A stretch of 27,374 nucleotides of DNA from a virus. Positions 4,860 to 23,943 of this stretch are shown piece by piece. The notes under the pieces were generated by a model that did no database searches, was not told the DNA's origin, and saw nothing but the letters and a program-made list of their open reading frames with translations. Location: the IMG/VR virus record IMGVR_UViG_3300032032_000019, positions 1 through 27,374 of that record; one strand, 5' to 3'. Made by a program: the position numbers and the translations under genes. Numbering within the stretch: position 1 is the first letter of the stretch; each line of letters opens with the position of its first letter.

Positions 4860-4875
4860 ACAATGAGATTTTATT

Positions 4876-7485: not shown

Positions 7486-8201
7486 GAAAAATATTATTAA
7501 CTGGTGGTTGTAGTTATACAGATAAAGATTGGTGTAGTGATTTTCACGATATAGGTCCTAACGCTTGGCCTTTCTGGCCCGAGATACTAGGAAAAAAATT
7601 AGATATGGAAGTTATTAATCTTGCTCATAGTGGAGCAGGTAACGAATATATTTACTATAGTCTATTGGACAAAATAGCGACTATTGATAATATAGGATTG
7701 GTAATACCTGCTTGGTCTGTATGTCAAAGGCGAGATTGGAAAATAAAAGGAAAGTGGTTTAATAATACCCAAGTTTGTAATACAGGTAAATTAGCAGTTG
7801 GTTTTTTTGGTTATGGTTCAAATGATATGTTTGGTTTTTTGGATAAAAGTATTGGATATTATTATAGTCTTCAAGAGATATGTAAATCTAAAAAGATACC
7901 TTTAAAACAAGTTCAAATGCTTCATATATTTCACGGTTGGTGGTACAATCCAGCTACACAAAAACAGGACGCCGTGGAAATGGATAATAGTAGATTTTTA
8001 CAACATATTAATAATAATATTTATTGTGATAAGATAGATAAAAATTTTATAGGTTGGCCTGGCGATCCAGGTATAGGTGGGTTTAGTATAAAGAGTGATG
8101 TATTAGGATATGGTAAATATGAAGTTTCAAAAAAAGATACTCATCCTACTGCAAAAGGACAAGAAAAAATAGCGGAGTTTATATATGACAGGTTGGGATA
8201 G
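7482..8201 (+). CDS. SGNH/GDSL-family hydrolase
   Basis: A 239-residue protein with the block pattern of SGNH hydrolases (esterases and acyl-sugar deacylases). Block I is TGGCSYTD, with the likely nucleophile Ser11; a second block is NLAHSGAGNEYIYY (46-59), offering oxyanion-hole Gly and Asn; block V is KDTHPTAKGQ with Asp219 and His221, the usual Asp-x-x-His or Asp-x-His pair. Trp-rich segments between them (PFWPEILG, FHGWWYNP) are typical of the marine phage members of this family. It has no signal peptide, so it acts in the cytoplasm, probably removing or transferring an acyl group on a glycan or intermediate. It overlaps the upstream stop by ATGA and runs 17 bases into the aminotransferase gene, indicating translational coupling. 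Confidence 0.8.
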   Translation: MRKILLTGGCSYTDKDWCSDFHDIGPNAWPFWPEILGKKLDMEVINLAHSGAGNEYIYYSLLDKIATIDNIGLVIPAWSVCQRRDWKIKGKWFNNTQVCNTGKLAVGFFGYGSNDMFGFLDKSIGYYYSLQEICKSKKIPLKQVQMLHIFHGWWYNPATQKQDAVEMDNSRFLQHINNNIYCDKIDKNFIGWPGDPGIGGFSIKSDVLGYGKYEVSKKDTHPTAKGQEKIAEFIYDRLG

Positions 8202-9450
8202 AGAATATTTAGCAAACAAAGAAGCATATTTAAAAATCTTTGATAGTGCTATGCAACAAGAACAGGAACAAAATGTAGAGTTCCTTGAAAAGAGTCTTAC
8301 TAAAATAACAGGTAGAAAGTATGCTGTCGCTTGTAATAGTGGTACAGACGCATTACATTTTGCTTTAATTAGTTTAGGTATTGATTCTAGATATGATGTA
8401 ATGACAACTCAATTTTCTTGGATAGCAACAGCGTCTTGTATATCTATGGTAGGTGCAAGACCTGTGTTTTGTGAACCTAATATTTTAACTTATCATATGG
8501 ATTTAGATAGTATTAAAAGAGAGTGGACGCCGAGAGTAAAAGCGATAGTGTATCCACATTTATTTGGTAGTATGTCTGATACAAAAGAGATATTAGATTT
8601 TTGTAAAGAAAAGAATATTGCATTTATAGAAGACGCCGCTCAGTCATTAGGTGCTAGTTTAAATGATGTTAAAGCAGGTTCAATAGGAGATGTTAGTTGT
8701 TTAAGTTTCAACGCAAATAAAGTTGTAGCTGGTATAGCAGGTGGTGGGGCAATCTTAACAGATGATAAAGACAAAGCAGAATTGTTTAGAAAGTTAAGAA
8801 GACACGGCAACAATGAAGTGTTAGGTCGTAACTCAAAAATGTTAATGCTTAATGCTTGTTTTATTAACTTTAGATTAAAGAAGATGAACGAATGGATATC
8901 TAAAAGACAAGAGATAGCAAAACAATATGATGAACAATTAAAAGATTATGTAACAGTACAACCTACAACAAATGGTCTTAACCATAACTATCACAAATAT
9001 GTTATTAGATTACAGAATAAAAAAGTAAGAGATATGGTTAAAGATAGACTTGGTGCGAAAGTGCATTATGATAAACCTTTGTCTGAAAGTCCTATGTATC
9101 AAAACATTAATCATAGAAAAGATAAACAGTATATTAGTAAAATTATTTGTGATACTATATTGACTTTACCTATACACCCTTATATGAAACAAGAGGAGAT
9201 TGATGAAGTTATTAATACAATTTTAATTTTATTAGGACACGAAGAGAATAAGTTTGTAAAAAATATGAAAAGAGTATTAGGTGATGATTTATTTGACGCA
9301 AGTTTAGTCAACGAAACAACTGAACCTATTTACGATTATATTGTAGAGAAGACCTATCAAACACCAGGGTATATTGAAGAAGTTGAGTTTAAGAATAAAA
9401 GAAAGTTGAAGATAGCATTTAATAAGTTTTATGAAAACATCACGAGATAG
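8185..9450 (+). CDS. DegT/DnrJ/EryC1-type sugar aminotransferase with C-terminal extension
   Basis: A PLP-dependent fold-type I enzyme that moves an amino group from glutamate to a keto-sugar nucleotide. Signature pieces: ACNSGTDALHFAL (49-61), which binds the cofactor phosphate; FIEDAAQSLGA (147-157), whose Asp150 pairs with the PLP nitrogen; SFNANK (174-179), with Lys179 as the likely Schiff-base lysine; GGGAILTDD (187-195); and RRHGNN (205-210). The core ends near residue 350 after LTLPIHPYMKQEEIDEVI. About 70 further residues (349-421) with no match to the family that I know follow, which is unusual. Together with the SDR this gene points to an amino sugar as an intermediate. Its start lies inside the SGNH gene. 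Confidence 0.9.
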   Translation: MTGWDREYLANKEAYLKIFDSAMQQEQEQNVEFLEKSLTKITGRKYAVACNSGTDALHFALISLGIDSRYDVMTTQFSWIATASCISMVGARPVFCEPNILTYHMDLDSIKREWTPRVKAIVYPHLFGSMSDTKEILDFCKEKNIAFIEDAAQSLGASLNDVKAGSIGDVSCLSFNANKVVAGIAGGGAILTDDKDKAELFRKLRRHGNNEVLGRNSKMLMLNACFINFRLKKMNEWISKRQEIAKQYDEQLKDYVTVQPTTNGLNHNYHKYVIRLQNKKVRDMVKDRLGAKVHYDKPLSESPMYQNINHRKDKQYISKIICDTILTLPIHPYMKQEEIDEVINTILILLGHEENKFVKNMKRVLGDDLFDASLVNETTEPIYDYIVEKTYQTPGYIEEVEFKNKRKLKIAFNKFYENITR

Positions 9451-10111
9451 ATTTTTCTTTAAAAATAAAAGACTTAATATTGAAGGTACGCCTAGATGTA
9501 CATTGGAATGCTCTATGTGTAAGAGAACAACATATATGTTTTTACATAAGACTAAAGTTGTCCCAGGTAACGATTTAACACCAGATGGATTAAAAAAAAT
9601 ATTAAAATATTGGAATGGTGATATAACTTTTAGTGGACAACTTTCTGACCCTATTTTTAATAAATATTTTATTGAATTATTAAAAATATGTAAAATATTC
9701 TCTTTAAACGGAAAAAAATTTAGAACTAGAGTTAATACAGCTGCTACAGGAAGAAAAGAAGATTGGTATGAAAAAGCATTTTTAGCAAATCCAGAAGCTA
9801 TTTGGACTTTTGGTATTGATGGACCCCCACACTTGAGTCATAATTATCGTGTAAATCAAAATGGTGAATTTTTATTTAAGATGATGTTGATGGCAAGGTT
9901 AATGGGAGTTGAAGCAATTTGGCAATATATTATCTTTGATTATAATAAAAAATATATGGATGAGTGCAAACAATTGGCGAAAAAATATAGTATAGAAATG
10001 ATTTTTATAAAGACACGAAGAGATGAAGATGAAATAGAATATTTACAAAATGCTCAAAGAAATAAGAGGGATAGATTTAAACCACCTAAAATAAAGCGTG
10101 AAGATGAGTAA
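9431..10111 (+). CDS. Radical SAM protein, catalytic half of a split radical SAM/SPASM enzyme
   Basis: A 226-residue protein with the radical SAM cluster motif C-x3-C-x2-C at Cys23, Cys27 and Cys30 (PRCTLECSMC), which holds the 4Fe-4S cluster that cleaves S-adenosylmethionine. FSGQLSDP (67-74) sits where other members have the GGEP strand, and FGIDGP near 127 fits a later strand of the partial TIM barrel. The protein stops after about 226 residues without the Cys-rich tail such enzymes carry; the next gene, in another frame and overlapping by eight bases, supplies it. The substrate is unknown; the family modifies peptides, sugars or tRNA bases by radical chemistry. The start lies within the end of the aminotransferase gene. 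Confidence 0.85.
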   Translation: MKTSRDRFFFKNKRLNIEGTPRCTLECSMCKRTTYMFLHKTKVVPGNDLTPDGLKKILKYWNGDITFSGQLSDPIFNKYFIELLKICKIFSLNGKKFRTRVNTAATGRKEDWYEKAFLANPEAIWTFGIDGPPHLSHNYRVNQNGEFLFKMMLMARLMGVEAIWQYIIFDYNKKYMDECKQLAKKYSIEMIFIKTRRDEDEIEYLQNAQRNKRDRFKPPKIKREDE

Positions 10112-10436
10112 ATTTTGTCCTAAATGTATATACAAAGACCAAGAAGTAACTCTTTCTTGTAATGGATTTTTTACTCCTTGTTGTTGGGTAGATGATGAAT
10201 TATATAGAGACCAAGATTGGATTAAAACTTTGTTTAAAGAACATTTAAAATTAGAAAATAATGAAAATGTTGAAGATATTTTTAAGAGTAAAGAGTGGAC
10301 TGATTTTTATAATATGTTAAAAAATAAACCAGAACAAGCGCCACCTGTATGTAAGAAATTTTGTGGTAGTGATTGGAATAAGGATTCTAAAAAAATAAGA
10401 ATAGTAAACGGAACTAAAGTTATAGAAACACATTAA
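10104..10436 (+). CDS. SPASM-like Fe-S domain protein, partner of the preceding radical SAM gene
   Basis: A 110-residue Cys-rich protein. From the ATG at 10104 the cysteines fall at 5, 8, 19, 26, 27, 83 and 87, including FCPKC, LSCNGFFTPCCW and PPVCKKFC. That spacing, and especially the N-G-x-x-x-P-C-C-W motif, is the auxiliary-cluster (SPASM or twitch) region normally fused to the C-terminus of radical SAM enzymes. Here it is a free-standing gene overlapping the radical SAM gene by eight bases (ATGAGTAA). An in-frame GTG at 10098 is an alternative start, adding two residues. The split could be true (two subunits), a programmed shift, or a recent frameshift. Spacing and overlap favour coupled expression. 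Confidence 0.75.
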   Translation: MSKFCPKCIYKDQEVTLSCNGFFTPCCWVDDELYRDQDWIKTLFKEHLKLENNENVEDIFKSKEWTDFYNMLKNKPEQAPPVCKKFCGSDWNKDSKKIRIVNGTKVIETH

Positions 10437-10437
10437 T

Positions 10438-11262
10438 ATGAAAACCTTACAAGAAATACAGAATAATTATTTGGCGGTAGACTTCTTTCTATCAATGTCT
10501 TGCAATAAAGACTGCCATTATTGTACAAGTTATACTTTAGAAATGAGAAACTTGACAGTAGATATGGTCTTTTTGAAAAGCACTTTAGAGAAATTTAAAA
10601 ACTATAAGATGAGAATATGTTTACTTGGTGGTGAACCTGGACTAATTAAAAATTTAGATAAAGTTATTGCAGAAATTAAAAAGTATCCTAATTTTATTTG
10701 TTCAGTATTATCAAACTCGTTTGTTAGAAAGAGATATCCTAAAGTATTAAAAGATAAAGAAATACTGTATGTTGAACACAATATATTAGACTTTTATGAG
10801 GATGAAGTAAAGATGTTAGGTAACTTTGATTTTGTACCTGAAAATGATATGAATAATTATAATGTAGTTGTAAAGACACCAAACTATTTTAAATACAAAG
10901 ACAATCATAAAGAAGTAATAGAAAAGTTAAATCATAAGAATACTATGTGGAAAGCATTTAATGGTAGGTCACCAGAATTTACAGATGTTATACAAGCAGA
11001 TGAAATAGATAGAAAATTGTGTGCTTCTTTTCCAATGGTGCCTGTAATAAATTTTGAAACAAAAACTATAGTACATTGTAGTAAAAAGTTTGCTAATAAT
11101 AAAGAGTTATCAAAAGAGTGGGACATTACACAGGAGAACGTTGATAAGATGATGAACTTTAGATTATTTAAATATGAAAACTATTGTAAGACTTGTACTG
11201 AATTTGTTCCACCAAAAGGACATTTTCCTATGAGAAAATATGCGAAGGTATTAAATGACTAA
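10438..11262 (+). CDS. Radical SAM protein with terminal cysteine cluster
   Basis: A 274-residue radical SAM enzyme. The cluster motif is C-x3-C-x2-C at Cys22, Cys26 and Cys29 (MSCNKDCHYCT). LLGGEPGL (63-70) is the SAM-binding GGEP motif in full form. The C-terminal part has further cysteines in LCASFP, VHCSKKF and YCKTCTEF, consistent with one auxiliary iron-sulfur cluster as in SPASM/twitch enzymes. It follows the split radical SAM pair by one base and overlaps the carbamoyltransferase by eight. The two radical SAM systems are not close copies of each other: their motifs and surrounding residues differ. The substrate is not readable; given the neighbours, modification of a sugar, amino acid or small peptide is plausible. 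Confidence 0.88.
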   Translation: MKTLQEIQNNYLAVDFFLSMSCNKDCHYCTSYTLEMRNLTVDMVFLKSTLEKFKNYKMRICLLGGEPGLIKNLDKVIAEIKKYPNFICSVLSNSFVRKRYPKVLKDKEILYVEHNILDFYEDEVKMLGNFDFVPENDMNNYNVVVKTPNYFKYKDNHKEVIEKLNHKNTMWKAFNGRSPEFTDVIQADEIDRKLCASFPMVPVINFETKTIVHCSKKFANNKELSKEWDITQENVDKMMNFRLFKYENYCKTCTEFVPPKGHFPMRKYAKVLND

Positions 11263-12823
11263 AATATTTGCAGTTGCATTAAATCTACACGACCATAATA
11301 CTTATGATGGTGTCTTTCATAATCAAAGAGAAAGATATACTAGATTTAAACATAATCTACCATTAAAGGTAGACTCTTATGCTCATCAAGAACAATTAGA
11401 AACAGGTGACTATAAATTAAATAATGAATTTGTTAAAGAGTATTTTAAAAAACCAAAAGATGGTATATTAAGTTTTTCAATGACAGTTGGTGGTATTAGA
11501 ATGTGTAAAGATATATTACCTAAAGAAGTATTAGATTTTAAACCTAAAAAGTTATGGGATCATTATTACAAAGATGATATTTACTTTATAGACCATCATC
11601 AATCTCACGCTACTTATGCGTTTATCAATTCTGGTTATGAACAATCAGATATAGTTGCTATTGATGGTATAGGTTATAAACATAGATGTATATTTGTTGA
11701 TAAAGATTATAATATTAAAGACTTGTCAAAAGAATTACCTATAGGTTGGTTGTGGAATCAAATGTCAAAACGAACTGGATTTGGTTCGTTAGGTGCAAGT
11801 AAATTAATGGGGTTAGTTGGTTATGGAAGATTTAGTTCATATTATTATAATGTATTTGAAACAATACTTGATGATGTTATAAAAGAAAAAAATTATAAAA
11901 CTCACGAATTAATTAATGTAGAAGAATATGGTGTACCAGATTTGGCATTTACATTACAAAAATTTACAAATGATAAAATTAAAGAACATATCTATCCACT
12001 TAAATCTTGCGACAATCTTTGTTTAGCAGGAGGAGTTATATATAACGGATATTTAAATGAAGAATTTACAAAGCATTATAAAAATGTTTATATACCACCT
12101 GCTGTGGGAGATGAAGGACAGGCATTAGGTAATTATCAACACGCTGATTATGTATTGAATAATAATAAACATAAGACAAAAACTTTTGCTGGTAGAAAAT
12201 ATATGTATGGTATAAGTGGATTAAATTTACAGTTGGCAATTGATTTTTATGGCAAAGGAGTTAACTATGAGTATGAAGAGTTAACTTTAGATATGATTAA
12301 TAAAGAAGTAGCACAGGCAATTGCTGATGGAAAGATAGTAGGTTGGTTTCAAGGTAAATCAGAAAGTGGTAACCGTGCATTGGGTAATAGAAGTATATTA
12401 GCAGACCCTAGAAATCCTAATATAAAATATATTATTAATAGTACAATTAAAGATAGAGAAGATTTTAGACCATTTGCGCCAGCAGTATTAGAGGATCATT
12501 ATGAAGATTATTTTGATACTATTGGTGGACCTAGTCCTCATATGTCAAGAATAGTTAAAGTAAAGAAAGATAAAAAATCAATAGTACCTGGTATAACTCA
12601 CGTTGATAATACAGCAAGAATACAAACAGTTAATAGAAAAGATAATGGTAAATTTTATAATTTAATCCATCAGTTTTATAAGATAACAGGTATACCAATG
12701 TTGTTGAATACTAGTTTTAATCGCCACGAACCTATTGTTGAATCACCAGAAGACGCAATTAAAACTTTTAAAAGAACAGCACTAGACTTGTTAGTGATAA
12801 ACGACTATATAGTAAGAAAATGA
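11255..12823 (+). CDS. Carbamoyltransferase, NodU/CmcH/TobZ family
   Basis: A 522-residue enzyme that uses carbamoyl phosphate and ATP to put a carbamoyl group on a hydroxyl of a sugar or antibiotic-like substrate, through a carbamoyl-adenylate. The N-terminal Kae1-like domain has HHQSHATYAF (114-123) with metal-binding histidines, IDGIG (136-140), GASKLMGLVGYGRF (180-193), LAGGVIYNG (258-266) and PPAVGDEGQALG (281-292). The C-terminal YrdC-like domain has GWFQGKSESGNRALGNRSIL (363-382), FRPFAPAV (404-411) and IPMLLNTSFN, all family hallmarks. Every expected motif is present and the length is close to that of known members, so it is probably active. It overlaps the neighbours on both sides (eight and four bases). 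In this cassette it most likely carbamoylates a glycan or nucleotide-sugar. Confidence 0.93.
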   Translation: MTKIFAVALNLHDHNTYDGVFHNQRERYTRFKHNLPLKVDSYAHQEQLETGDYKLNNEFVKEYFKKPKDGILSFSMTVGGIRMCKDILPKEVLDFKPKKLWDHYYKDDIYFIDHHQSHATYAFINSGYEQSDIVAIDGIGYKHRCIFVDKDYNIKDLSKELPIGWLWNQMSKRTGFGSLGASKLMGLVGYGRFSSYYYNVFETILDDVIKEKNYKTHELINVEEYGVPDLAFTLQKFTNDKIKEHIYPLKSCDNLCLAGGVIYNGYLNEEFTKHYKNVYIPPAVGDEGQALGNYQHADYVLNNNKHKTKTFAGRKYMYGISGLNLQLAIDFYGKGVNYEYEELTLDMINKEVAQAIADGKIVGWFQGKSESGNRALGNRSILADPRNPNIKYIINSTIKDREDFRPFAPAVLEDHYEDYFDTIGGPSPHMSRIVKVKKDKKSIVPGITHVDNTARIQTVNRKDNGKFYNLIHQFYKITGIPMLLNTSFNRHEPIVESPEDAIKTFKRTALDLLVINDYIVRK

Positions 12824-13506
12824 ATACATTTGAATTATTAGAAGGAAGACATCACGTAAGAAAATATAGTGATAAAGTTCCACCAAAAGAACAAATAGAA
12901 TCGGCCTTATGGAAAGCGTGGAAGACAACACCAACTAAAAATAATGCTATGCCGTATAAAATATTTGTATATGGTCCCGATAAAAAAGAAGAAAAAGAAA
13001 AAGTTTGGAAGATGGTATATAAAAATCATAAAGTTGCTGAAAGAAGAGCAGTAGCAAGAGGACAAGGAAAAACAACTGAAGGAGGTTTTGCTAATCCTTA
13101 TTATGAACATATAAAATATAATCCTTATTTACTTACTATTCACGCCCAACCAAGAGAACCTAATGAGTTTTATAGAAAACAAGTTGAGAGAGGTATGTTT
13201 TTTGACCAAGCGTGGCCAGAAAGAGTTGATAACTTTATTGATACGTCTGCTGTTGAGGTTGGATTGTTTATTCAAATATTAACATTGTATTTACTAGAAT
13301 ATAAAATTGACCTTTCTTACACTTCTTGTTTTGTAAGGGATGCTAAACAATGGAGAGCAATTGGATTAAAACACGTTGAATATAGACCAATAGTATTAAT
13401 GTCAATGGGTTATAGTGAAGTGTTTAGAAAAGATGTAATAGAAAAGGCTAGACGTACACACGAAGATATAAAACCTGCAATGAGTGAAATGATAGAATGG
13501 ATATAA
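12820..13506 (+). CDS. Nitroreductase-family flavoprotein
   Basis: A 228-residue protein with the nitroreductase fold, which binds FMN as a dimer and performs NAD(P)H-dependent reductions or dehydrogenations. The N-terminus GRHHVRKYSDKVPPKEQIE (9-27) is the conserved arginine-containing FMN-binding start. TTPTKNNAMPYKIFVYG (36-52) matches the A-P-S-x-x-N-x-Q-P-x-x-F/V motif, although the usual Ser and Gln are replaced. RPIVLMSMGY in the last quarter is the strand that normally ends in a G-Y/F loop. The middle region (about 95-140, rich in charged residues and Trp/Phe) is the variable lid. ATGA overlap with the carbamoyltransferase suggests coupling. A second, more divergent nitroreductase lies at 15737-16936. 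The substrate is unknown. Confidence 0.8.
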   Translation: MNTFELLEGRHHVRKYSDKVPPKEQIESALWKAWKTTPTKNNAMPYKIFVYGPDKKEEKEKVWKMVYKNHKVAERRAVARGQGKTTEGGFANPYYEHIKYNPYLLTIHAQPREPNEFYRKQVERGMFFDQAWPERVDNFIDTSAVEVGLFIQILTLYLLEYKIDLSYTSCFVRDAKQWRAIGLKHVEYRPIVLMSMGYSEVFRKDVIEKARRTHEDIKPAMSEMIEWI

Positions 13507-16936: not shown

Positions 16937-17490
16937 GAATAATATGTTGTAAGTTTGGTGATAAGTTTACTAATTGGCACGTTAGAAATTTGAAACATAT
17001 GATAGACACTTATTCAGGTCTAAAGTATGATGAGTTTGTTGTTGTATCATCCGATTTATATGGCAACTGGTATAACAAACTTCAAATGTATGATATCTAT
17101 AGAGATGGAGAAAACTTATACTTTGATTTAGATGTGATTATCTATGATAAACTACCAAACTTAATTAGAAAAGATTTTACATTGTTAGATGATACTTGGT
17201 GGAGAGAACCTGCTCATACACCATTAAACTCTTCTGTTGTATCTTGGACTGGTGATATATCACATATATGGAAAAAGTTTAAAGAAAATGATAAGTATTA
17301 TCTAAACAAATATAATAAAGGTAGTGATGAGTTTTATTATAAACAAATAGATTATAAAACATATGATAAAGTTTGTCCAAAATTTAAAGAAACTAAAGAT
17401 GAAAATTATAGTATGTGTACACTTGGTCAATTACATCATATAATGGAGAAAGGTTGGACTGGTTGGTGGTCGCCTTATTTTATATCGTGA
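16933..17490 (+). CDS. Short GT-A glycosyltransferase-like protein
   Basis: A 185-residue protein beginning MRIICCKFGDKFTNWHVRNL. NLYFDLDVIIYDKL (61-74) contains a D-x-D pair (Asp65, Asp67) at the end of a hydrophobic strand, as in the neighbouring glycosyltransferases. It is followed by WWREPAHTPLNSSVVSW, where an N-S/N-x-G-x-x acceptor-side loop is usual. It is short for the fold and may lack C-terminal elements, although no frameshift is visible. The start overlaps the upstream stop by ATGA. It closely resembles the gene at 15000 in the order of features, so the two may derive from one ancestor. Function as sugar transferase is inferred from the motif and context. Confidence 0.65.
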   Translation: MRIICCKFGDKFTNWHVRNLKHMIDTYSGLKYDEFVVVSSDLYGNWYNKLQMYDIYRDGENLYFDLDVIIYDKLPNLIRKDFTLLDDTWWREPAHTPLNSSVVSWTGDISHIWKKFKENDKYYLNKYNKGSDEFYYKQIDYKTYDKVCPKFKETKDENYSMCTLGQLHHIMEKGWTGWWSPYFIS

Positions 17491-17497
17491 GAATAAT

Positions 17498-18565
17498 ATG
17501 TTATTTGCAGACAATATAGATAGAAAACTTTTACCTAAAAATATACTTATATTAAATGCTCGTATAAAATGGGAAACTCTAGTAGAATTTTGTTTAAAGT
17601 ATGACATTAATTTTAAGATGTTTGAACTAGCTAATAATAATCATTTTAATATAAGTCAAAAATTAAAACCATATACTACATTTCTTCCAAAAGAAAAATT
17701 ATATGATCCGCAATATTATATAAACACTTTAGATTTTGAACCTGAATATATTATGAATTGTAGAGATGAAGAACCAATTACTACTGTAGAATATAAACTT
17801 TCTCTTTACTATAATACTAAAACACAATTTGATAAAAGAGCTTTAAAGCTTTTTACATCTAAAAAAGAACAAGACCGAGTATGTAAATTAATAGGTACAC
17901 CTACTTTAGATGAAGGAAGTATTACAAGGAATGATAAAATTATAATAAAATTAGATTCAGGACAGTCAGGTGGTGGTACTGGTTATAAAGTTGCTGATAA
18001 AAGAAATTATATACCAAAGAAAAATGATTTTATACAAAGATATATTAATTATGATTATACACTCAACTCACACGCAATAGTTGATAATGATGGCGAGTAT
18101 CATATATATCATCACGATATAGGTAAATTTGGAGATGGTCATATTGTAGGTAATAATATTGCATATCTATATCTATATCCATTTACAGAATTTCCAAAAG
18201 AAGAGATAGCTATAGTAGAAGAATTTTATAAAGGATTAAAAGAACATATAACAGTAAAAAATAGGATTTTCTATTCAGAATTTTGTAAAGAAAAAAATGG
18301 TAAACTATATTTTCAAGAACTTAATAGTAGACCTTCTGGTGAATTTGAAATAGGAACGTTTGATTGGAATATAGGTAAATTTAATACACTAGTAGATTAC
18401 TTTACAAATAACGTACAAGAAGAAATAGAATACTATCAACAAACTGTAGAAATATATTTAGAAAGTATTAACAATAATTCACTATTTGGTTGGGGAGGAC
18501 CAGATGGAATGAAAGGAACAACTATTCCATTTTCAAAAAAAATAAAGGTATTTAATACAAAATGA
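17498..18565 (+). CDS. ATP-grasp ligase
   Basis: A 355-residue protein of the ATP-grasp superfamily, whose members activate a carboxylate with ATP and join it to an amine, or carboxylate a substrate. After an N-terminal alpha/beta domain (1-115), SKKEQDRVCKLIGTPTL (121-137) is the entry helix-strand seen before the ATP site. DKIIIKLDSGQSGGGTGYKV (146-165) carries Lys151 and a glycine-rich lid loop. FCKEKNGKLYFQELNSRPSG (262-281) contains Glu274 and Asn276, which bind the two metal ions, and an Arg-Pro-Ser-Gly tail. ITRNDK and DFIQRYINYDYTLN add the strands in between. A second ATP-grasp gene lies at 21103-22233 and is not a close copy. In context it may attach an amino acid to an amino sugar or to a peptide. 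Confidence 0.82.
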   Translation: MLFADNIDRKLLPKNILILNARIKWETLVEFCLKYDINFKMFELANNNHFNISQKLKPYTTFLPKEKLYDPQYYINTLDFEPEYIMNCRDEEPITTVEYKLSLYYNTKTQFDKRALKLFTSKKEQDRVCKLIGTPTLDEGSITRNDKIIIKLDSGQSGGGTGYKVADKRNYIPKKNDFIQRYINYDYTLNSHAIVDNDGEYHIYHHDIGKFGDGHIVGNNIAYLYLYPFTEFPKEEIAIVEEFYKGLKEHITVKNRIFYSEFCKEKNGKLYFQELNSRPSGEFEIGTFDWNIGKFNTLVDYFTNNVQEEIEYYQQTVEIYLESINNNSLFGWGGPDGMKGTTIPFSKKIKVFNTK

Positions 18566-19194
18566 GTTACTTATTTGACACAATAGCTAGATATGGCGAC
18601 ATTATTCCTTTAAAATATAAATTAGATTATAAAAAATTTGAAGAAGGTTTAGAATTATTTGGTGATAAATGGGTTCAATATAATCCTAGAAAAAAGATTC
18701 CTAGGTATGGTTTAAGTATTACTAGTTTGGATGGTGGGTTTTCTGGCAGACCAGATTTGGATTCATTAAAGGAATATAATATAGAACATAATTTAAATCT
18801 TGATGAACCAGATTTTAAAACTCTAACACCCATTTGGCCTTATGTTGAATCAGTATTATCAAAATTTAAAAATCATTTAGGAAGAACTCATATTATTAAG
18901 ATGTCGGCGGGTGGACAATTTCCATCTCATAGAGACCATTATGATAGAGAATTACCAACGTGTAGGTTGTTTATACCAATCTATAATTGCAATCCACCAT
19001 TTAATTATTTTATTTTAGATGATAACCTTTTGCGTTTTGACCACGGAAGATTATATTTTTTAAATACTTGTAAAGAACATATAGTATTTACAAGTGGTCG
19101 TGGTGGGAATCAACAATCAATGTTTATAGTAGCAAATCTTATATTAACGAAAGAATCTGTAGATTTAGTATTACATAATATGAGGAGTAGTTAA
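18562..19194 (+). CDS. 2-oxoglutarate/Fe(II)-oxygenase-like protein (aspartyl/asparaginyl hydroxylase-like), copy 1
   Basis: A 210-residue double-stranded beta-helix protein. MSAGGQFPSHRDHYD (114-128) gives the first metal ligands, His123 and Asp125, in an H-x-D motif. RFDHGRLYFLNTCKEHIVFT (158-177) gives the distal His173 with the G-x-x-x-x-x-N-x-x-x-x-H pattern found in aspartyl/asparaginyl beta-hydroxylase-like enzymes. The N-terminal third has RYGLSITSLDGGFSGRPDLD (48-67), shared with the next gene. Such enzymes use iron, 2-oxoglutarate and oxygen to hydroxylate amino acids, peptides or small molecules. ATGA overlap with the ATP-grasp gene suggests they act on one substrate. All visible metal ligands are intact, so activity is likely. 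Confidence 0.78.
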   Translation: MSYLFDTIARYGDIIPLKYKLDYKKFEEGLELFGDKWVQYNPRKKIPRYGLSITSLDGGFSGRPDLDSLKEYNIEHNLNLDEPDFKTLTPIWPYVESVLSKFKNHLGRTHIIKMSAGGQFPSHRDHYDRELPTCRLFIPIYNCNPPFNYFILDDNLLRFDHGRLYFLNTCKEHIVFTSGRGGNQQSMFIVANLILTKESVDLVLHNMRSS

Positions 19195-19199
19195 TAGTT

Positions 19200-19838
19200 A
19201 TGAATGATGATGACAAAGCGTTATTACGCTTAAATACAATGTCTGATTGGATAGAGTTTCCAGGTTTTAAAAAAGACAAATTATTAGAAGAATTAAAACC
19301 TTTTGATAAAGATTGGAAAAAATATAATCCAAAAAAACCAAACAATCGCTGGGGATTAAGTGTAACTAGTATTGACGGTGGTCTTCACGGCATACCTGAT
19401 TTAACAAGTTTAAGAGATTACAAAATTCAAACTGGACAAGATATACATAACCACGATATAGTTGTTCCAACAGATGTTTGGAAACAATGTCCCACATTAC
19501 AAACAATTTTAGAACCTTGGGCAAAATGGTTAGGTCGTTGTCATTTTTTAAGAATGGATAGAGGCAGTTTCTTTCCAGAACATTTTGATATTAATAAAGA
19601 AGATTATAGTTATGATGAAATTAGATTAGTTGGTTTTGTTAAATGCAATGAATATGATTTTAAATGGATATATGATGATAAAGTTATTAAAGGCAATAGT
19701 GGTTCTCTTTGGTATTTTAATGGCAATAAAAGACATAGTGTTTTTTCTTTTAAAGATGGAATAATTTTATTAGTTATGTGTTTAAAATTTGATAAAGAGT
19801 TGTTTCAGTTTATGTTGGATTATGGTAAGGTAAAATAA
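19200..19838 (+). CDS. 2-oxoglutarate/Fe(II)-oxygenase-like protein, copy 2
   Basis: A 212-residue paralogue of the previous product. RWGLSVTSIDGGLHGIPDLT (50-69) matches the same stretch in copy 1, and KKYNPKK precedes it in both. The metal site is FFPEHFD with His128 and Asp130. GNKRHSVFSFKDG (175-187) has distal His179 and the F-S-x-x-D-G tail typical of the family. It differs from copy 1 in the substrate-facing loops (SGRGG is replaced by FKDG), so the two may hydroxylate different positions or partners. An AGGAG at 19183-19187 precedes the ATG by twelve bases. The stop shares one base with the TctA start (TAATG). Confidence 0.78.
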   Translation: MNDDDKALLRLNTMSDWIEFPGFKKDKLLEELKPFDKDWKKYNPKKPNNRWGLSVTSIDGGLHGIPDLTSLRDYKIQTGQDIHNHDIVVPTDVWKQCPTLQTILEPWAKWLGRCHFLRMDRGSFFPEHFDINKEDYSYDEIRLVGFVKCNEYDFKWIYDDKVIKGNSGSLWYFNGNKRHSVFSFKDGIILLVMCLKFDKELFQFMLDYGKVK

Positions 19839-21106
19839 TGCTTTCTTTATTATGGTGTTTGATTGGAATATTAACAGGTGTTGTCTTCGGAATTATACCT
19901 GGTGCAGGACCTTTTTTAGCAGTTGCAACAATCTATCCTTTACTATTTCTTTTAGACCCTTTTAATATATTACTATTTTATATTTCACTTCTTCTTACAA
20001 CGAATTATACAAATTCAGTTACAAGTATTCTTTATGGAATACCAGGTGACGCTGCCGCTGTAACTACTGCTAGACACGGACATAATCTATTCTTAAAGGG
20101 AGAAGGACATCTTGCAGTAAGTACCAATGCTATTTCAAGTACATTAGGTTCTATATTTGCAATAGGTTTATTCTTAATATTTCTACCTAGTATCTATAGT
20201 ATATTTCAATTTTATAATAGTACTATACAATTATCTATTGTTTGTTTAGCAGTTTTATTATTAACTCTATTATCAAAACAAAAGATGTGGAAGACTATAC
20301 TTCTATTTGTATTTGGTGGCATATTAGCAAAGATAGGATTTGATAATACGACATATGAAACTTGGGGAACATTTGGTATTGATTATCTAACGTTAGGTAT
20401 TCCTTTTAGTGCTGTAATGATAGGGTTGTATATTGTACCTGAAATATTAAAGTTTAGAGATTTAAAGATATCTAAACAAAAACCAATTAGAAAATTTGGT
20501 ATAGCAAAGAGTACATTACCTTCAACAGGAGTAGGAAGTTTTGTTGGATTTTGGTGTGGTCTTGTTCCAGGAGTAACTAATATTTTAGGAAGTTATTTAA
20601 GTGCTAATTTAGTTAAAACAGATATAAAGAAAATAGCGGCTGCCGAATCAGCGAACAATAGTGGTGCGTTAAGTTCTTTGATACCTTTAATAGTACTTGG
20701 TATACCTATTGTTGGTAGTGAAGTATTAATTTACTATTTAATACTAGCACAAGGATTTGTTTTTAACGTAGATAATCTATCTATCTTTACTAATATATTC
20801 TATTACATACCAATCATATTAGCTATATGTTTATTCTTATCTTGGAAGTGTTTTAATTTATTAGGTATGTTAGCATATCACTTGAAGAAACATAAAAATG
20901 TATTGACTTATTTTATTTTACTTTTTATTTCTTTAATGAGTATTTACATATATCCAGTAAGAGAGTGGTTATTAATAACATTAATTGTATTAAGTATAAT
21001 AGGTTATTATTTAAAGAGAGTAGATACTTTTCCAATACTATATGGATTTTTCTTAACAGATTTGTTTTGGGATAACTTAATGAGAGTAATGGTAATATAC
21101 GGATGA
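19838..21106 (+). CDS. tctA: TctA-family large permease of a tripartite tricarboxylate transporter
   Basis: A 422-residue, strongly hydrophobic protein with many transmembrane helices. Family marks are clear: TGVVFGIIPGAGPFLAVATI (13-32), SILYGIPGDAAAV (63-75), then HGHNLFLKGEGHLAV (80-94); the second internal repeat has SFVGFWCGLVPGVTN and AAAESANNSGALSSLIPLIV with GIPIVGSE. TctA is the large subunit that carries citrate or other carboxylates across the cytoplasmic membrane, together with TctB and the binding protein TctC. The length is below the usual about 500, with a shortened C-terminal part. No TctB gene is seen. A TctC-like gene lies 1.1 kb further on the opposite strand. The symbol denotes family membership; the substrate is unknown. 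Confidence 0.92.
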   Translation: MLSLLWCLIGILTGVVFGIIPGAGPFLAVATIYPLLFLLDPFNILLFYISLLLTTNYTNSVTSILYGIPGDAAAVTTARHGHNLFLKGEGHLAVSTNAISSTLGSIFAIGLFLIFLPSIYSIFQFYNSTIQLSIVCLAVLLLTLLSKQKMWKTILLFVFGGILAKIGFDNTTYETWGTFGIDYLTLGIPFSAVMIGLYIVPEILKFRDLKISKQKPIRKFGIAKSTLPSTGVGSFVGFWCGLVPGVTNILGSYLSANLVKTDIKKIAAAESANNSGALSSLIPLIVLGIPIVGSEVLIYYLILAQGFVFNVDNLSIFTNIFYYIPIILAICLFLSWKCFNLLGMLAYHLKKHKNVLTYFILLFISLMSIYIYPVREWLLITLIVLSIIGYYLKRVDTFPILYGFFLTDLFWDNLMRVMVIYG

Positions 21107-22233
21107 AAAATTTAATACTAGGATATAAGAGAGGTTGGAATAAATGGGAATGCCTTCAAAAAGCATTGGAAAATTGTGATGTAGTTACTGAAGACTTTGA
21201 TAAGATTAAAGGACCTTATGATAGAATTTATACGGTTGCAGAAAGTCTATTACCTATACAAGCAAAATTAGAGAAAGAGTGGGGACTAAACAATGTGTCA
21301 GAAAAAGCGGCAGATATTTTATCTGATAAGAAAAAGATGGATGATTTTTGTATTACTATTGGTCTTCAAAGTTTAATACCATATAGTGTCATACCTACAA
21401 GTCCAAAAGATTTAAATTATTGGGAAGATAAACCTTTTATAATAAAACCTATTATTGGTTCAGGTGCTAAACCTGGAGGATTAAATTATACTTATTTTAA
21501 AAATAAGAAAGAGTTTTTAGATTTAAATGATAGTTCGTTATATAAAAGTTGGGAAGACCCAGCATTTAATAATCGTCTTAATCATTATATGGTACAAGAT
21601 AAACTTCCAGATGAAGCAGAATTGTGGGGTTCTTATTATTATGTTAATGAAAGTGGAGTTTTAAAAAATCTATTATGGGTAAGAGGAAAATGTAGAGAAG
21701 GTAGAAATGTTGAATTTATGAGTTTTGATAAGAAAGATGTACCTAAAGATATAGTATATCAATCTAATAATTTTTTTGAAAGATTAGTAGCTACTTTACG
21801 TTTAAAAAATATGTTCTTTTCTGGACCTGATTTTTATAAATGGAAAGATAATATTAAGATGATAGATTGCAATTCAAGAATTGGTCAAGGTTTACAACAA
21901 ATGGATGATGTACATAACAATACAATAGTACCAAAAATTTTACAAAATAAAACGTTCTCTTATGATAAACAAATTTATTGGGTTCTGTCTAATTTAAAAC
22001 CAGGTAAAATAGAATCTGTAAAAGATGTATCTCACTTAAAAGAATATTGGTGTCAGACTAATAATGATAAATTAAGACCTGGAGAAACAATACCAAAGTC
22101 TTTACATCTTACTTCCGAAAAAGTTCCTAGAATAGCTTTCTTAATAACAGGTACTAACGAGTCTGATATGCTAAAAACATACCAGACTGTTAATTCTAAA
22201 CTACAGGATTGTATTACTTATTCAACTCAATAG
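21103..22233 (+). CDS. ATP-grasp-like ligase, second copy
   Basis: A 376-residue protein. The N-terminal domain (1-70) begins MKNLILGYKRGWNKWECLQK. SDKKKMDDFCITIGLQSLIP (74-93) is the helix before the ATP site. FIIKPIIGSGAKPGGLNYTY (112-131) provides Lys115 and the G-S-G-A-K-P-G lid, close to the K-P-x-x-G-S-G-S-x-G of typical ATP-grasp enzymes. FFSGPDFYKWKDNIKMIDCN (238-257) then R-I-G-Q-G carries Asp255, Asn257 and Arg259 of the metal site (usually E-x-N-x-R). The final 80 residues are less clear and include VPRIAFLITGTNESDM. It overlaps TctA by ATGA, and its last 20 bases overlap the end of the opposite-strand solute-binding-protein gene. It is the last gene of the cassette. Ligation of a small carboxylic acid is likely; specificity is unknown. 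Confidence 0.75.
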   Translation: MKNLILGYKRGWNKWECLQKALENCDVVTEDFDKIKGPYDRIYTVAESLLPIQAKLEKEWGLNNVSEKAADILSDKKKMDDFCITIGLQSLIPYSVIPTSPKDLNYWEDKPFIIKPIIGSGAKPGGLNYTYFKNKKEFLDLNDSSLYKSWEDPAFNNRLNHYMVQDKLPDEAELWGSYYYVNESGVLKNLLWVRGKCREGRNVEFMSFDKKDVPKDIVYQSNNFFERLVATLRLKNMFFSGPDFYKWKDNIKMIDCNSRIGQGLQQMDDVHNNTIVPKILQNKTFSYDKQIYWVLSNLKPGKIESVKDVSHLKEYWCQTNNDKLRPGETIPKSLHLTSEKVPRIAFLITGTNESDMLKTYQTVNSKLQDCITYSTQ

Positions 22234-22984
22234 CAGCGTTAACTTTATAAACTAAAGATTCCGCATTTTCATTATCTAAAACATACGTAGTAGGTACTGC
22301 TGATAACCACGCTTCTGTTATTGATAATTCTTTTACTATATTTCTATATTCTTCAAGAGCACCATTTGAAGCATTAACTGATAATATTACATCAACAAAC
22401 GCAAAGTCTAAATCACCATTAGCACTAAAGGCAATACATTTACCATCTGCCTCTACTTTAGCTTGTTTAGTTTGAATTGTAAAAATTGTATCAGCGTCTT
22501 TACCTAGATAACCTCTAGTAGTAGCACCACTACCGTCATATGGAACAATTTCAAAAGTTATATTATTTGCTGTACCATAGTTATCAAGAAATTTTTTAAC
22601 AACTGGAGAATCACCCCACGTTGCTATCTTAATTGTTTGACCAGACATTTCACTAACAGACGAGTAAGTTCTACTACAAAGTATAGTTTCGTATGCTGTA
22701 ACAGCAACGATTGTATCTTTGTTTATTTCAACTGTTGGTAATGTTTCATCTCCTGGCCATTCTGTACTCCACATAGTAAGAACATTTTTCTTGTTAAAAT
22801 GTTTCTCCGCTATTACTGGATTATTTGCTTGTACAAAAGTGTGATTAATTTTGTCGCCAATCATTGTGAGTACGGTTCTAAATGCACCATCATTTGATCC
22901 TGCATTTACGATAGTTGTTGTTGATCCAGCGAATGCTGAGATTGGCAATAATAACAACATCACCGCTATTAATAGTTTTTTCAT
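22214..22984 (-). CDS. Exported TctC/Bug-type solute-binding protein
   Basis: A 256-residue protein whose N-terminus, MKKLLIAVMLLLLPISAFAG, is a clear signal peptide with a likely cut after AFA (residue 19). The mature part has the two-lobed binding-protein look: TTIVNAGSNDGAFRTVLTMI, then ATWGDSPVVKKFLDNYG (about 140-156), then VPYDGSGATTRGYLGKDADT. The last of these matches the V-P-Y-x-G-x-x-x-x-x-x-x-L-G-x-x-x-D pattern of TctC/Bug periplasmic proteins, which catch carboxylates for TctA/TctB. It is shorter than the usual about 320 residues. It is the only minus-strand gene in the window, it converges on the cassette with a 20-base overlap, and it has its own sigma70-type promoter. AAAGGA (22996-23001) is an 11-base-spaced ribosome binding site. 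TctC assignment is probable; another binding-protein family is possible. Confidence 0.75.
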   Translation of the reverse strand: MKKLLIAVMLLLLPISAFAGSTTTIVNAGSNDGAFRTVLTMIGDKINHTFVQANNPVIAEKHFNKKNVLTMWSTEWPGDETLPTVEINKDTIVAVTAYETILCSRTYSSVSEMSGQTIKIATWGDSPVVKKFLDNYGTANNITFEIVPYDGSGATTRGYLGKDADTIFTIQTKQAKVEADGKCIAFSANGDLDFAFVDVILSVNASNGALEEYRNIVKELSITEAWLSAVPTTYVLDNENAESLVYKVNAAIELNK

Positions 22985-23019
22985 AAATTATTCAATCCTT
23001 TAATTAATTTAGTATTCTA

Positions 23020-23048
23020 AATATATCATTATTTAGTGGTTTTGTCAA
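23020..23048 (-). promoter_or_regulatory. Sigma70-type promoter for the solute-binding-protein gene
   Basis: On the minus strand a perfect -35 box TTGACA (23043-23048) is followed after 17 bases by TATATT (23020-23025), five of six matches to TATAAT. The start codon lies about 35 bases downstream of the -10 box. This is the strongest host-type promoter that I can see in the window. It faces away from the late promoter at 23069-23076, so the 123-base gap holds divergent signals of two expression classes. Confidence 0.65.
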
Positions 23049-23068
23049 TGTTGCCTGCTTACAACTTA

Positions 23069-23076
23069 TATAAATA
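23069..23076 (+). promoter_or_regulatory. T4-type late promoter TATAAATA
   Basis: An exact TATAAATA, the T4 late promoter sequence read by the phage sigma factor gp55, in a true intergenic gap 31 bases before the start of the next gene. GGAG follows at 23097-23100 as ribosome binding site. Recurrence of the same octamer before the genes at 23695 and 27336 supports the call. It would restart transcription of virion block B after the cassette. Confidence 0.7.
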
Positions 23077-23107
23077 GTATTATGAATAAATTAAATGGAG
23101 ATGTTGT

Positions 23108-23311
23108 ATGATAACAATTGACGGAAAAGAATATGATGAACAGAAGTTTAGTCCTGAATTACAAAATTACATAGCAGTAAGACAAGAAATTCAAGTAAGC
23201 AAGACTAGACATTTGATTGAAATTGAAAAGATAGATGTTTTAACTAAGCATTATAACGATAAAATAGTCAAATTGATTAAAAAAGAAGTACCAGAATCCG
23301 AGAAAAAATAA
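23108..23311 (+). CDS. Small phage protein of unknown function
   Basis: A 67-residue protein. MITIDGKEYDEQKFSPELQN is a short beta-hairpin-like start of a kind seen in small phage proteins (I-x-I-D-G-x-x-Y). Residues 28-65 are a single charged helix with heptad character (VSKTRHLIEIEKIDVLTKHY), so oligomerisation is likely. I cannot assign a function. It is the first gene after the late promoter at 23069-23076 and touches the next ATG directly (stop then ATG with no gap), which places it in the virion expression unit. Small proteins of this shape occur beside tail genes in other T4-like marine phages, and a chaperone or virion role is possible. Confidence 0.7.
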   Translation: MITIDGKEYDEQKFSPELQNYIAVRQEIQVSKTRHLIEIEKIDVLTKHYNDKIVKLIKKEVPESEKK

Positions 23312-23650
23312 ATGGCAGCAATAGCTAACTTAACCATAGACCAAGGAACAACCTTTAATTCAGACGTAACTGTAAAGGATGCCAATGGACAACCGTTTAA
23401 CCTAACTGGTTATACAGCGGCGGCGAAGATGGCCAAAGGATTTGCTTCCACAAGAACACGAATTAATATGACTACTTCAATAGCGACAGACGCCGCTACT
23501 GGTGTAGTTACTCTCTCATTAACAGCAACCGAATCAAGTGCTTTGGATGCTGAGAGATATGTATATGACCTTGAAATAACTTCGGATGTTGGTGCTGTAA
23601 CTAGAGTTATTGAAGGATTAATTACAGTCCGACCTCAAGTTACTACTTAA
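23312..23650 (+). CDS. Small Ig-like virion protein (baseplate/fibre-associated type)
   Basis: A 112-residue protein. NLTIDQGTTFNSDVTVKDAN (6-25), NLTGYTAAAKMAKGF (30-44), then VVTLSLTATESSALDAERYV (70-89), YDLEITSDVGAVTRVIEG and ITV form alternating strands of a beta sandwich. This pattern (L-T-I-D-Q-G-T-x-F ... L-T-G-Y-x-x-x-x-x-x-R/K ... L-x-A-x-x-Y-x-Y-D-x-x-I) is common in small structural proteins of cyanophages and in the N-terminal domain of some receptor-binding baseplate proteins (BppU-like). No enzyme motif is present. Likely a virion accessory or connector of fibres. Confidence 0.8.
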   Translation: MAAIANLTIDQGTTFNSDVTVKDANGQPFNLTGYTAAAKMAKGFASTRTRINMTTSIATDAATGVVTLSLTATESSALDAERYVYDLEITSDVGAVTRVIEGLITVRPQVTT

Positions 23651-23666
23651 TCAAACTACTTTCAGT

Positions 23667-23674
23667 TATAAATA
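23667..23674 (+). promoter_or_regulatory. T4-type late promoter TATAAATA
   Basis: A second exact TATAAATA in a 44-base gap, ending 20 bases before the ATG at 23695. A strong GGGAG ribosome binding site (23685-23689) lies between them. Position and spacing match the other late boxes. Confidence 0.7.
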
Positions 23675-23694
23675 TAAGATAAAAGGGAGAGAGA

Positions 23695-23943
23695 ATGCCT
23701 GATATAACAGCAAAAATAAATGTAAATACACAATCTGGTCCACAAAAAGTTTCTGTGACCTTGCCGTCTAGTAAGGCACTTCAAAATTCTGCCCTTAAAT
23801 TAGCTCTTCTTGGTGATGTTGATACTACCAATTTAGATGATGGTTCTATGATACAATATAGAGCAAGTGATGGCAAATTTGTAACTAGAACAGAAATAGT
23901 GACCACAACAGGTACACTATTATTTAATTGTGGGAGTTTCTAA
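23695..23943 (+). CDS. Small virion-associated protein
   Basis: An 82-residue protein. The N-terminal half (MPDITAKINVNTQSGPQKVS) reads as beta strands; the middle has LLGDVDTTNLDDGSMIQYRA, which I recognise as a recurring fibre-related phrase in marine phages, where D-V-x-x-x-N-L-x-D-G-x-x-L-x-Y-x-x-x-x-x-x-F introduces strands that stack along a fibre. It ends TGTLLFNCGSF. It sits between a late promoter and the large fibre gene, with a three-base gap to the latter, and is probably expressed with it. A short fibre segment or fibre-attachment protein is likely; the exact role is unknown. Confidence 0.7.
   Translation: MPDITAKINVNTQSGPQKVSVTLPSSKALQNSALKLALLGDVDTTNLDDGSMIQYRASDGKFVTRTEIVTTTGTLLFNCGSF

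Follow-up and report, generated by a model that had tools for sequence, protein, structure and literature searches.

Tripartite tricarboxylate transporters (TctCBA, Bct, AdpC/MatC and other Bug systems) are the cellular systems most comparable to the locus described here, with which they share a TctA permease and a protein of the TctC/Bug fold. The role of their TctB subunit is called unknown in the accessible part of a review of these transporters (PMC5812351). Transport genes are also on record in viruses: the accessible parts of two papers describe, for marine viruses, tctA on contigs of SUP05 viruses and tricarboxylate transport on a viral island (PMC4164917, PMC8115048), and part of another reports a megaphage that carries a SusC-type TonB receptor (PMC9723777).

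Viral metabolic genes are mostly read singly, as host genes on loan. Here we analyzed a stretch of viral DNA of 27,374 nucleotides (IMG/VR record IMGVR_UViG_3300032032_000019; hereafter, the window) in which three genes stay together, encoding a TctA permease, an ATP-grasp-like enzyme and a TctC-like binding protein. A search of the open-access full-text literature, within the portions of papers that it covered, found no description of this trio. Our preferred reading, to which we assign a probability of roughly 0.55, is that the trio forms a putative uptake module that depends on a binding protein, lacks TctB and has the ATP-grasp enzyme as its constant partner.

The permease is encoded on the plus strand at 19838-21106 (422 aa), and its start codon, an ATG, shares bases with the stop codon of the preceding gene. 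An earlier reading of the window, made from its sequence only, had proposed a phage-borne TctA, and this identification holds: the Pfam family PF01970 (TctA) matches the protein over its full length (model positions 1-415 of 423; E-value 4.3e-64; 217.1 bits, with a cut-off of 28.9). The claim that the TctA motifs are complete in both internal repeats is likewise borne out, as no column of the Gly/Pro motifs, in either half, varies when 18 viral and 8 cellular TctA proteins are aligned. The permease was also correctly regarded as shorter than usual. Among 20 alphaproteobacterial TctA ORFs, 18 are 492-507 aa long, and the remaining two are 584 and 707 aa, counted from the first start codon. Aligned with cellular TctA, the protein is missing an extension at the N-terminus, a loop in the middle and the C-terminal end.

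A phylogeny with host copies had been suggested as a check, and it gave no indication of a recent host origin. In the tree, viral TctA forms a separate, deep branch (support 100/100) apart from the 20 alphaproteobacterial proteins; this counts against a recent capture from any sampled host. A TctA scan of genome contigs recovered no more than two loci, which lie in a single Rhodobacteraceae MAG. We considered these loci as a cellular source of the TctA/binding-protein pair and rejected them, given that both are phage-like by gene content. Outside that MAG, TctA matches had E-values of 1e-25 or weaker in the class, and the best in the phylum was 3.4e-26. A profile of the binding protein found nothing beyond the phage-like MAG contigs in 289 alphaproteobacterial genomes, and in 398 genomes of the phylum no more than three matches, all partial and borderline (E about 0.009). 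The class and phylum samples partly overlap, and any statement that the protein is virus-only applies to that phylum.

The binding protein is encoded on the minus strand at 22214-22984 (256 aa), and the end of its gene overlaps the end of the ATP-grasp gene. Its N-terminus resembles a signal peptide when judged by eye, so that the protein is probably exported. It matches no Pfam family at E<=1. The TctC profile PF03401 has no match in any of 27 related viral records or in any of 21 members of the binding-protein family scanned singly, one of which matches Pfam PBP_like_2 (E 0.00083). A sequence search of solved structures with the protein returned no binding protein among its matches.

For the predicted fold, TctC/Bug proteins fill all of the ten best rows in VIA-align (Z 14.7-10.7), the first being 4x9t (Z 14.7, rmsd 3.5, 228 aligned), and rank 11 (5ub3, Z 10.5) is tied with rank 10. 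By Foldseek E-values, ABC-type binding proteins lie close to TctC. The model is of middling quality (pLDDT 72) and falls below 50 in part of the second loop region (residues 151-161 and 171-180). In hhalign, an alignment of the viral protein matches an alignment of 15 cellular TctC proteins with a probability of 54.8 and E 1.2e-4; a reversed control gave E 0.086, and the best of 100 shuffles gave E 0.0041, with probabilities of at most 8.3. However, these controls contained no other family of binding proteins, and the match therefore shows a relation to the fold class more securely than one to TctC in particular.

Two loops were compared with those of TctC. The domain-1 signature PFxAGGxxD, as given in the accessible part of PMC5812351, is absent from the 21 members; in its position, 20 have N-x-G-S-x-x-G-x-F and the other has Y for F. 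Because this signature is missing, we call the protein TctC-like. The second pincer loop, VP[YF]xGSGxTxxGY[LI], occurs in all 21 (the cellular consensus is VPYxGxG) and pairs with the TctC loop in hhalign. Two Cys residues are also conserved in 21 of 21. The earlier description of an exported, TctC-like protein thus stands on the predicted fold and on a profile comparison that exceeds its controls, despite the lack of a PF03401 match. Its unusual shortness is also confirmed: the TctC ORFs compared measure 322-397 aa counted from first start codons.

The ATP-grasp-like enzyme (21103-22233, plus strand; 376 aa) overlaps the end of tctA by 4 bases at its start. It has no Pfam match, and sequence searches of solved structures with alignments of this protein and of the neighboring hydroxylase-like protein found nothing. 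Its predicted structure (pLDDT 91.4) has an ATP-grasp fold. Foldseek matches it to 3vot, an L-amino-acid ligase, with E 1.1e-17, and VIA-align gives tied scores for 3vot (Z 24.0) and PurK (Z 23.1). The model thus resembles amino-acid ligases and PurK, and ligase chemistry is a candidate prediction.

Of the contigs with enough room to either side of TctA, all 53 encode the binding protein and the ATP-grasp enzyme within 2.5 kb of it; these contigs are not independent lineages, as they contain 40 distinct TctA stretches. Counting in the reverse direction, TctA and ATP-grasp lie near the binding protein in 25 of 25 contigs with room. Two MAG contigs (L072 and L073) are outside the linkage and promoter counts. 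Among 26 contigs with less room around TctA, the binding protein was unseen in 6 and ATP-grasp in 4, each within 2.5 kb of the locus end, and among 37 with less room around the binding protein, TctA was unseen in 18 and ATP-grasp in 10. The phages that carry the trio have diverged to about 50% identity in TctA and about 30% in ATP-grasp. Median dN/dS is 0.155 for TctA (278 non-independent pairs), 0.294 for the binding protein and 0.47 for ATP-grasp, and the three genes are thus under purifying selection.

Two gene orders occur among the 53 contigs: the binding protein is on the TctA strand in 30 and on the opposite strand in 23. In many relatives with the first order, it directly follows TctA, and the window's order is therefore one of two arrangements. 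This bears on the earlier description of a carboxylate transporter split by an ATP-grasp gene. Its coordinates are correct, but the notion of a split is not, as ATP-grasp is a constant partner of TctA and the binding protein and not an interloper. The genes inserted between TctA and ATP-grasp vary among relatives. In one viral group, a gene for a TonB-dependent receptor lies 5' of TctA: a Plug domain was found in 7 of 27 records, and the receptor's gene cluster in 18 of 28 loci of this group.

Where the binding-protein gene is opposite TctA, it usually has a predicted near-consensus promoter of its own. In the window, this is a sigma-70-like site at 23020-23048 on the minus strand (TTGACA, 17 nt, TATATT, the latter preceded by TG), which has 11 of 12 matches and is the best of 39 sites in 17400-23700. 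However, such sites are no commoner there than in shuffled sequence (39 versus a mean of 41.1), and we therefore used only aligned upstream regions for the promoter claim. In the opposite-strand arrangement, 21 of 28 distinct upstream regions, which are related by descent, have a promoter with at least 10 of 12 matches (3.3 expected). Where the binding protein follows TctA, 1 of 16 does (0.86 expected). These counts exclude loci that have no TctA match or fewer than 100 nt of upstream sequence, as well as repeats of an upstream sequence. The core of the T4 late promoter, ATAAATA, is rarer than chance in the window (12 versus 29); one copy is at 23070, and no promoter was assigned to it.

The absence of TctB, a 4-TM subunit, was also proposed earlier and agrees with our searches: no match exceeded the cut-off in 53 viral records (0 of 1 for the window's own record, 0 of 27 and 0 of 25 for relatives), with the caveat that most of these are fragments and that the TctB model is weak, exceeding the cut-off in 3 of 14 known control genomes. 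Two sub-threshold matches (E 0.035 and 0.09), inside frames of 335 and 285 aa, were taken as noise. We also considered a hidden TctB in relatives where 650-850 nt separate TctA from the module gene that comes next, and found no ORF for a small membrane protein in these gaps; as read from their sequences, the gap ORFs resemble an FkbM-type methyltransferase, a dioxygenase-like protein or another methyltransferase-like protein. The module offers a natural test of whether a TctA that depends on a binding protein works without TctB.

The trio lies in an island bordered on the left by a VrlC-like structural gene (2-2803, plus strand, open at the window start) and on the right by a gene resembling those for tail-fibre assembly (23312-23650, plus strand; PHROG 3304, L-shaped tail fibre protein assembly, E 1.4e-21). 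Directly 5' of tctA is a hydroxylase/dioxygenase-like gene (19200-19838, plus strand) with no Pfam match in its product, preceded by a paralogue (18562-19194, plus strand; hhalign probability 99.5, 33% identity to the family of the former). A gene of this type lies within 2.5 kb of TctA in 31 of the 53 contigs with room; as it is missing in 22, we excluded it from the core. The same island is found between VrlC and tail-fibre genes in Pelagibacter phage Mosig EXVC030M (MT647606), where the VrlC-like protein is 65% identical to a putative VrlC, the right-border protein is 77% identical to one annotated as a putative tail fiber protein, and the relative of 19200-19838 is annotated Asp_Arg_Hydrox. 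Counterparts exist in Mosig for 18 of the 22 window proteins searched. In the stretches of Mosig that were examined, TctA, ATP-grasp, the binding protein and the protein of 17498-18565 were not found, and a search of a phage collection gave no Mosig match for TctA or the binding protein. Mosig is a cultured phage of SAR11, and SAR11 is among the most abundant groups in the sea. By way of Mosig, SAR11 is the likely host group of the window's relatives.

In the preferred reading, the TctC-like protein would be exported, bind a small carboxylate-bearing solute in the periplasm and hand it to TctA, which, with no TctB subunit, would use an ion gradient to move it inward. The ATP-grasp enzyme would then activate a carboxylate with ATP and couple it to an amine, which would trap the imported compound or feed it into the surrounding biosynthetic island. 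Here we infer the ligand, the direction of transport, the ion coupling, the independence from host TctB and the action of ATP-grasp on the imported compound. An uptake function, as proposed by the sequence-only reading, is likely, if putative.

That reading further suggested that TctA and the binding protein, as auxiliary metabolic genes, plug into the host's TctB and raise the host's carboxylate uptake; ATP-grasp would then be incidental cargo. We consider this unlikely. It does fit the organization of cellular loci, in which TctC mostly adjoins TctA and a TctB-like cluster was recognized by BLAST clustering at 13 of 20 alphaproteobacterial TctA loci, and it fits the variable cargo of the island, where the genes between TctA and ATP-grasp differ. 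However, incidental cargo would hardly be kept in all 53 contigs and through a change of gene order, and the viral TctA and binding protein are so distant from sampled host copies that a fit to host TctB is not expected. It is rather improbable that the trio instead serves the cell surface, moving precursors for, or taking part in, a modification of the envelope or tail fibre that affects receptor choice or superinfection. Such roles are proposed in general terms for the pelagimyophage host-recognition island in the accessible part of PMC7029224, which describes the site between VrlC and tail-fibre genes as a host recognition cluster, and the trio's neighbors include glycosyl-, carbamoyl- and aminotransferase-like genes (names taken partly from annotation). 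Yet the hallmark of uptake is a periplasmic binding protein under a promoter of its own, and in one group a TonB-dependent receptor joins the operon.

It is also conceivable, though very doubtful, that TctA works by itself with some other function, as is suspected of stand-alone TctA in archaea, or exports a product of the island, while the binding protein serves separate sensing or scavenging. According to the accessible parts of PMC5898192 and PMC10133366, TctA without TctB or TctC is common in archaea, and one archaeal TctA, in Methanococcus, is needed for DNA uptake in transformation. However, the binding protein accompanies viral TctA in every one of the 53 contigs and, in one strand order, is encoded directly 3' of it.

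Returning to the uptake module, the trio persists across strongly diverged marine phages and a change of gene order, and the binding protein gains a promoter where it is separated; this is hard to explain without a shared function in infection. That the three genes travel together suggests that, for infection, the virus brings its own means of taking up a small nutrient and using it. Tentatively, we extend this to a pathway of import and ligation that evolved in viruses, composed of a TctB-less TctA, a virus-only TctC-like protein and a dedicated ATP-grasp ligase, with a TonB receptor in one group; we regard this as possible but not probable. If true, marine T4-like and larger phages would have a transport module in it and not a recently borrowed host gene, and in the group with the TonB-dependent outer-membrane receptor it would be a virus-encoded route across both host membranes.

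Among described systems, the SUP05 viral contigs are alike by description, as tctA is one of four AMGs there that also include a 2OG-Fe(II) oxygenase; the accessible parts of these reports (PMC4164917, PMC8115048) give a domain match or annotation only and do not describe a binding protein, an ATP-grasp partner or the loss of TctB. In BFVD, five of the nine matches to the binding protein at E<=0.001 bear Bug or PBP2_Bug_TTT names; these proteins, from uncultured Caudovirales phages, have the same fold, with 12-16% identity in the alignments. The ATP-grasp enzyme has a whole-chain likeness of fold to PurK and the L-amino-acid ligases (BL00235, RizA, BacD/YwfE), with an identity of only about 10-15%. 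Compared with the tripartite tricarboxylate transporters, TctB was not found in the viral module, the binding protein is short and divergent, without a signature of the PFxAGGxxD type, and an ATP-grasp enzyme is a constant partner.

The window, a virus record of 27,374 bases, opens with a gene for a VrlC-like structural protein; then comes an island of enzyme genes, followed by tail-fibre genes. The VrlC-like protein is 65% identical to that of Pelagibacter phage Mosig EXVC030M, a cultured SAR11 phage whose version of the gene is the closest among phage records; in pelagimyophages, a passage of PMC7029224 describes the same place as a hypervariable host recognition cluster. Near the island's right end lie tctA (19838-21106, + strand) and an ATP-grasp-like gene (21103-22233, +), with the gene of a TctC-like, putatively exported protein (22214-22984, - strand) convergent to the latter. 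Because gene ends overlap (tctA starts at the last base of the preceding hydroxylase-like gene and shares four bases with the ATP-grasp gene), these three + strand genes look co-transcribed. The 355-amino-acid protein of 17498-18565 resembles a second ATP-grasp enzyme by our reading of its sequence, with no Pfam support.

We compared 22 window proteins with two stretches of the Mosig genome and found 18 of them there. The two islands have in common an aminotransferase-like gene (8185-9450), a radical-SAM-like gene (9431-10436), a carbamoyltransferase gene (11255-12823; Pfam E 2.9e-67) and a nitroreductase gene (12820-13506; E 1.2e-11), a block that is mostly inverted in Mosig. No match in the two stretches was found for TctA, the adjacent ATP-grasp enzyme, the binding protein or the 17498-18565 protein, and a search of the whole phage collection gave no Mosig match to TctA or the binding protein. 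Because 18 of the 22 proteins are found in these Mosig stretches but the trio is not, the trio is a discrete gain or loss within a shared island. The host of Mosig is Pelagibacter ubique HTCC1062, and SAR11 is a reasonable guess for the host of the window's phage.

The trio is constant among relatives. A TctA alignment match was present in 79 viral contigs, 53 of which have 2.5 kb on both sides within the fetched stretch; both the binding protein and the ATP-grasp enzyme lie within 2.5 kb of TctA in all 53, and the hydroxylase-like gene is nearby in 31. The 53 do not count as independent cases, as they contain 40 distinct TctA stretches; clustering at 85% identity leaves 18 representatives. 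Even with less room, the binding protein was seen in 20 of 26 contigs and the ATP-grasp enzyme in 22. Starting from the binding protein instead, we found TctA and ATP-grasp at all 25 loci with enough room. We also picked 57 loci by hand, partly the same ones; all 57 have TctA, and 56 have each of the two partners, with contig L023 as the one exception for both. The most distant relatives share about 50% identity in TctA, about 45% in the binding protein and about 30% in ATP-grasp. The binding protein is on the same strand as TctA in 30 of the 53 contigs and on the opposite strand in 23, the main orders being TctA-ATP-grasp with the binding protein reversed and TctA-binding protein with ATP-grasp reversed. 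Thus, the transporter parts are indeed close together, as the sequence-only reading held, but their being split by an ATP-grasp gene is one of two orders, and that gene is a partner in 53 of 53.

Other genes accompany the module in places. PP-loop-type (nucleotide-activating) enzyme genes, named by our reading, occur nearby in both viral groups (4/29 loci of the first, which includes the window, and 6/28 of the second; e.g., L072:2490-3305 and L191:2301-3044). Contigs L072 and L073, from the MAG 'Rhodobacteraceae bacterium Water_Bin34' (a species-level genome in a GTDB-based collection), carry the module and appear to be phage contigs that were binned with the bacterium; again by our reading, L073 further encodes a haem oxygenase-like protein (2431-2973) and a PiT-type phosphate permease-like protein (4228-5193).

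The permease matches Pfam TctA over nearly the whole profile (E 4.3e-64), and alignment bears out the earlier statement that its motifs are kept in both halves. It is also, as had been noticed, short: about 80 residues below most cellular copies, a feature common to viral relatives (421-429 amino acids in representatives). A median dN/dS of 0.155 (278 non-independent pairs) shows purifying selection on the viral TctA genes. In an unrooted tree with a narrow cellular sample of 20 alphaproteobacterial TctA, a long branch (support 100/100) separates the 18 viral representatives from the cellular proteins. Loci L008 and L230 each have one in-frame stop in the stretch around TctA, in the gene or before its start (TGA, G007; TAG, G028:C173).

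The binding protein matched no Pfam or NCBIfam family above its cut-off, and the TctC profile found nothing in 27 related viral records. Its structure model is middling (pLDDT 72). With VIA-align, the ten best solved folds are all TctC/Bug, led by Polaromonas TctC 4x9t (Z 14.7, rmsd 3.5, 228 aligned, 11% identity), and the first unrelated fold, 5ub3 (Z 10.5), ties with the tenth; plain Foldseek gives comparable E-values for TctC/Bug proteins and for ABC-type ones, and its ranking intermixes the two. Comparing profiles of 21 viral proteins and 15 cellular TctC gave one collinear match (215 columns, probability 54.8, E 1.2e-4), against 0.7 for the reversed alignment and at most 8.3 (best E 0.0041) for 100 shuffles. 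All 21 members keep the second loop, VPYxGSG, and two Cys that possibly form a disulfide. A passage of PMC5812351 gives PFxAGGxxD as the domain-1 signature of TctC; the 21 aligned viral proteins lack it, and 20 of them have NxGSxxGxF instead, the other having Y for the F. One of the 21 matches Pfam PBP_like_2 (E 0.00083). Because of this replacement and this match, we call the protein TctC-like rather than TctC despite the agreement in fold, profile and second loop; the original label survives on those three, but not on the Pfam TctC profile or the domain-1 signature.

The third transporter part, TctB, had been called missing. Its profile had no match in the window's record or in 27 relatives, and none above cut-off in 25 further relatives. 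However, the absence is probable rather than proven, because the completeness of the records (the largest 127-257 kb) is not stated and the model is weak, exceeding its cut-off in just 3 of 14 control genomes. For comparison, we clustered the ORFs that surround tctA at 20 alphaproteobacterial loci, setting aside overlapping frames by eye; 13 of the loci have a TctB-like cluster and 17 have TctC ORFs.

Upstream of the window's binding-protein gene, TTGACA and TATATT stand 17 nt apart, and a TG precedes the TATATT box; of the 39 promoter-like sites in 17400-23700, this one scores best. Among distinct upstream regions in the convergent order, 21 of 28 score at least 10 of 12 (four perfectly), versus 3.3 expected from shuffles; where the gene follows TctA, 1 of 16 does, versus 0.86 expected. 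A host-type promoter when the gene is alone, and none when it is readable with TctA, fits joint use of both genes. Because upstream regions share descent, this contrast is suggestive and not a formal test. Between this promoter and the tail-fibre-assembly gene is a short unlisted ORF (23108-23311), with TATAAATA at 23069, 5' of it; a similar small gene, judged by eye (representative L018:9911-10207), occurs in 3/29 and 10/28 loci.

ATP-grasp enzymes use ATP to activate a carboxylate, which is then joined to a nucleophile. The model of the linked enzyme is confident (pLDDT 91.4); its best Foldseek match is the L-amino-acid ligase 3vot (E 1.1e-17), also best with VIA-align (Z 24.0), with PurK tied (23.1). 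In the second viral group, an ORF of locus L182 (2352-3992) encodes the Plug domain of TonB-dependent receptors (E 4.6e-17) and ends at the first base of tctA, which the binding protein then follows. Plug is present in 7 of 27 records searched, and the receptor gene cluster occurs at 18 of this group's 28 loci and at none of the 29 in the window's group. In these viruses, outer-membrane receptor, periplasmic binder and inner-membrane carrier would together make a path through both the outer and the inner membrane.

For the module, we observed the protein families and folds, the gene linkage, the promoter, purifying selection and the lack of a detectable TctB; from there we infer export, ligand, direction, energy source and coupling to the enzyme. 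We favor, with a probability of about 0.55, a TctB-less, binding-protein-dependent TctA that imports a carboxylate-bearing solute used by the linked ATP-grasp enzyme. The periplasmic binding protein would bind this solute and pass it to TctA with no TctB, and the enzyme would use the imported compound.

Parts of this arrangement have precedents. A passage of PMC4164917 names viral TctA in SUP05 viruses as a 'protein domain hit only', part of PMC8115048 reports a viral island with tricarboxylate transport, and an excerpt of PMC5898192 covers stand-alone TctA in archaea. Bug-type proteins carry such annotation in uncultured phages. The literature searched yielded no constant trio, divergence from sampled host copies or receptor-carrier operon.
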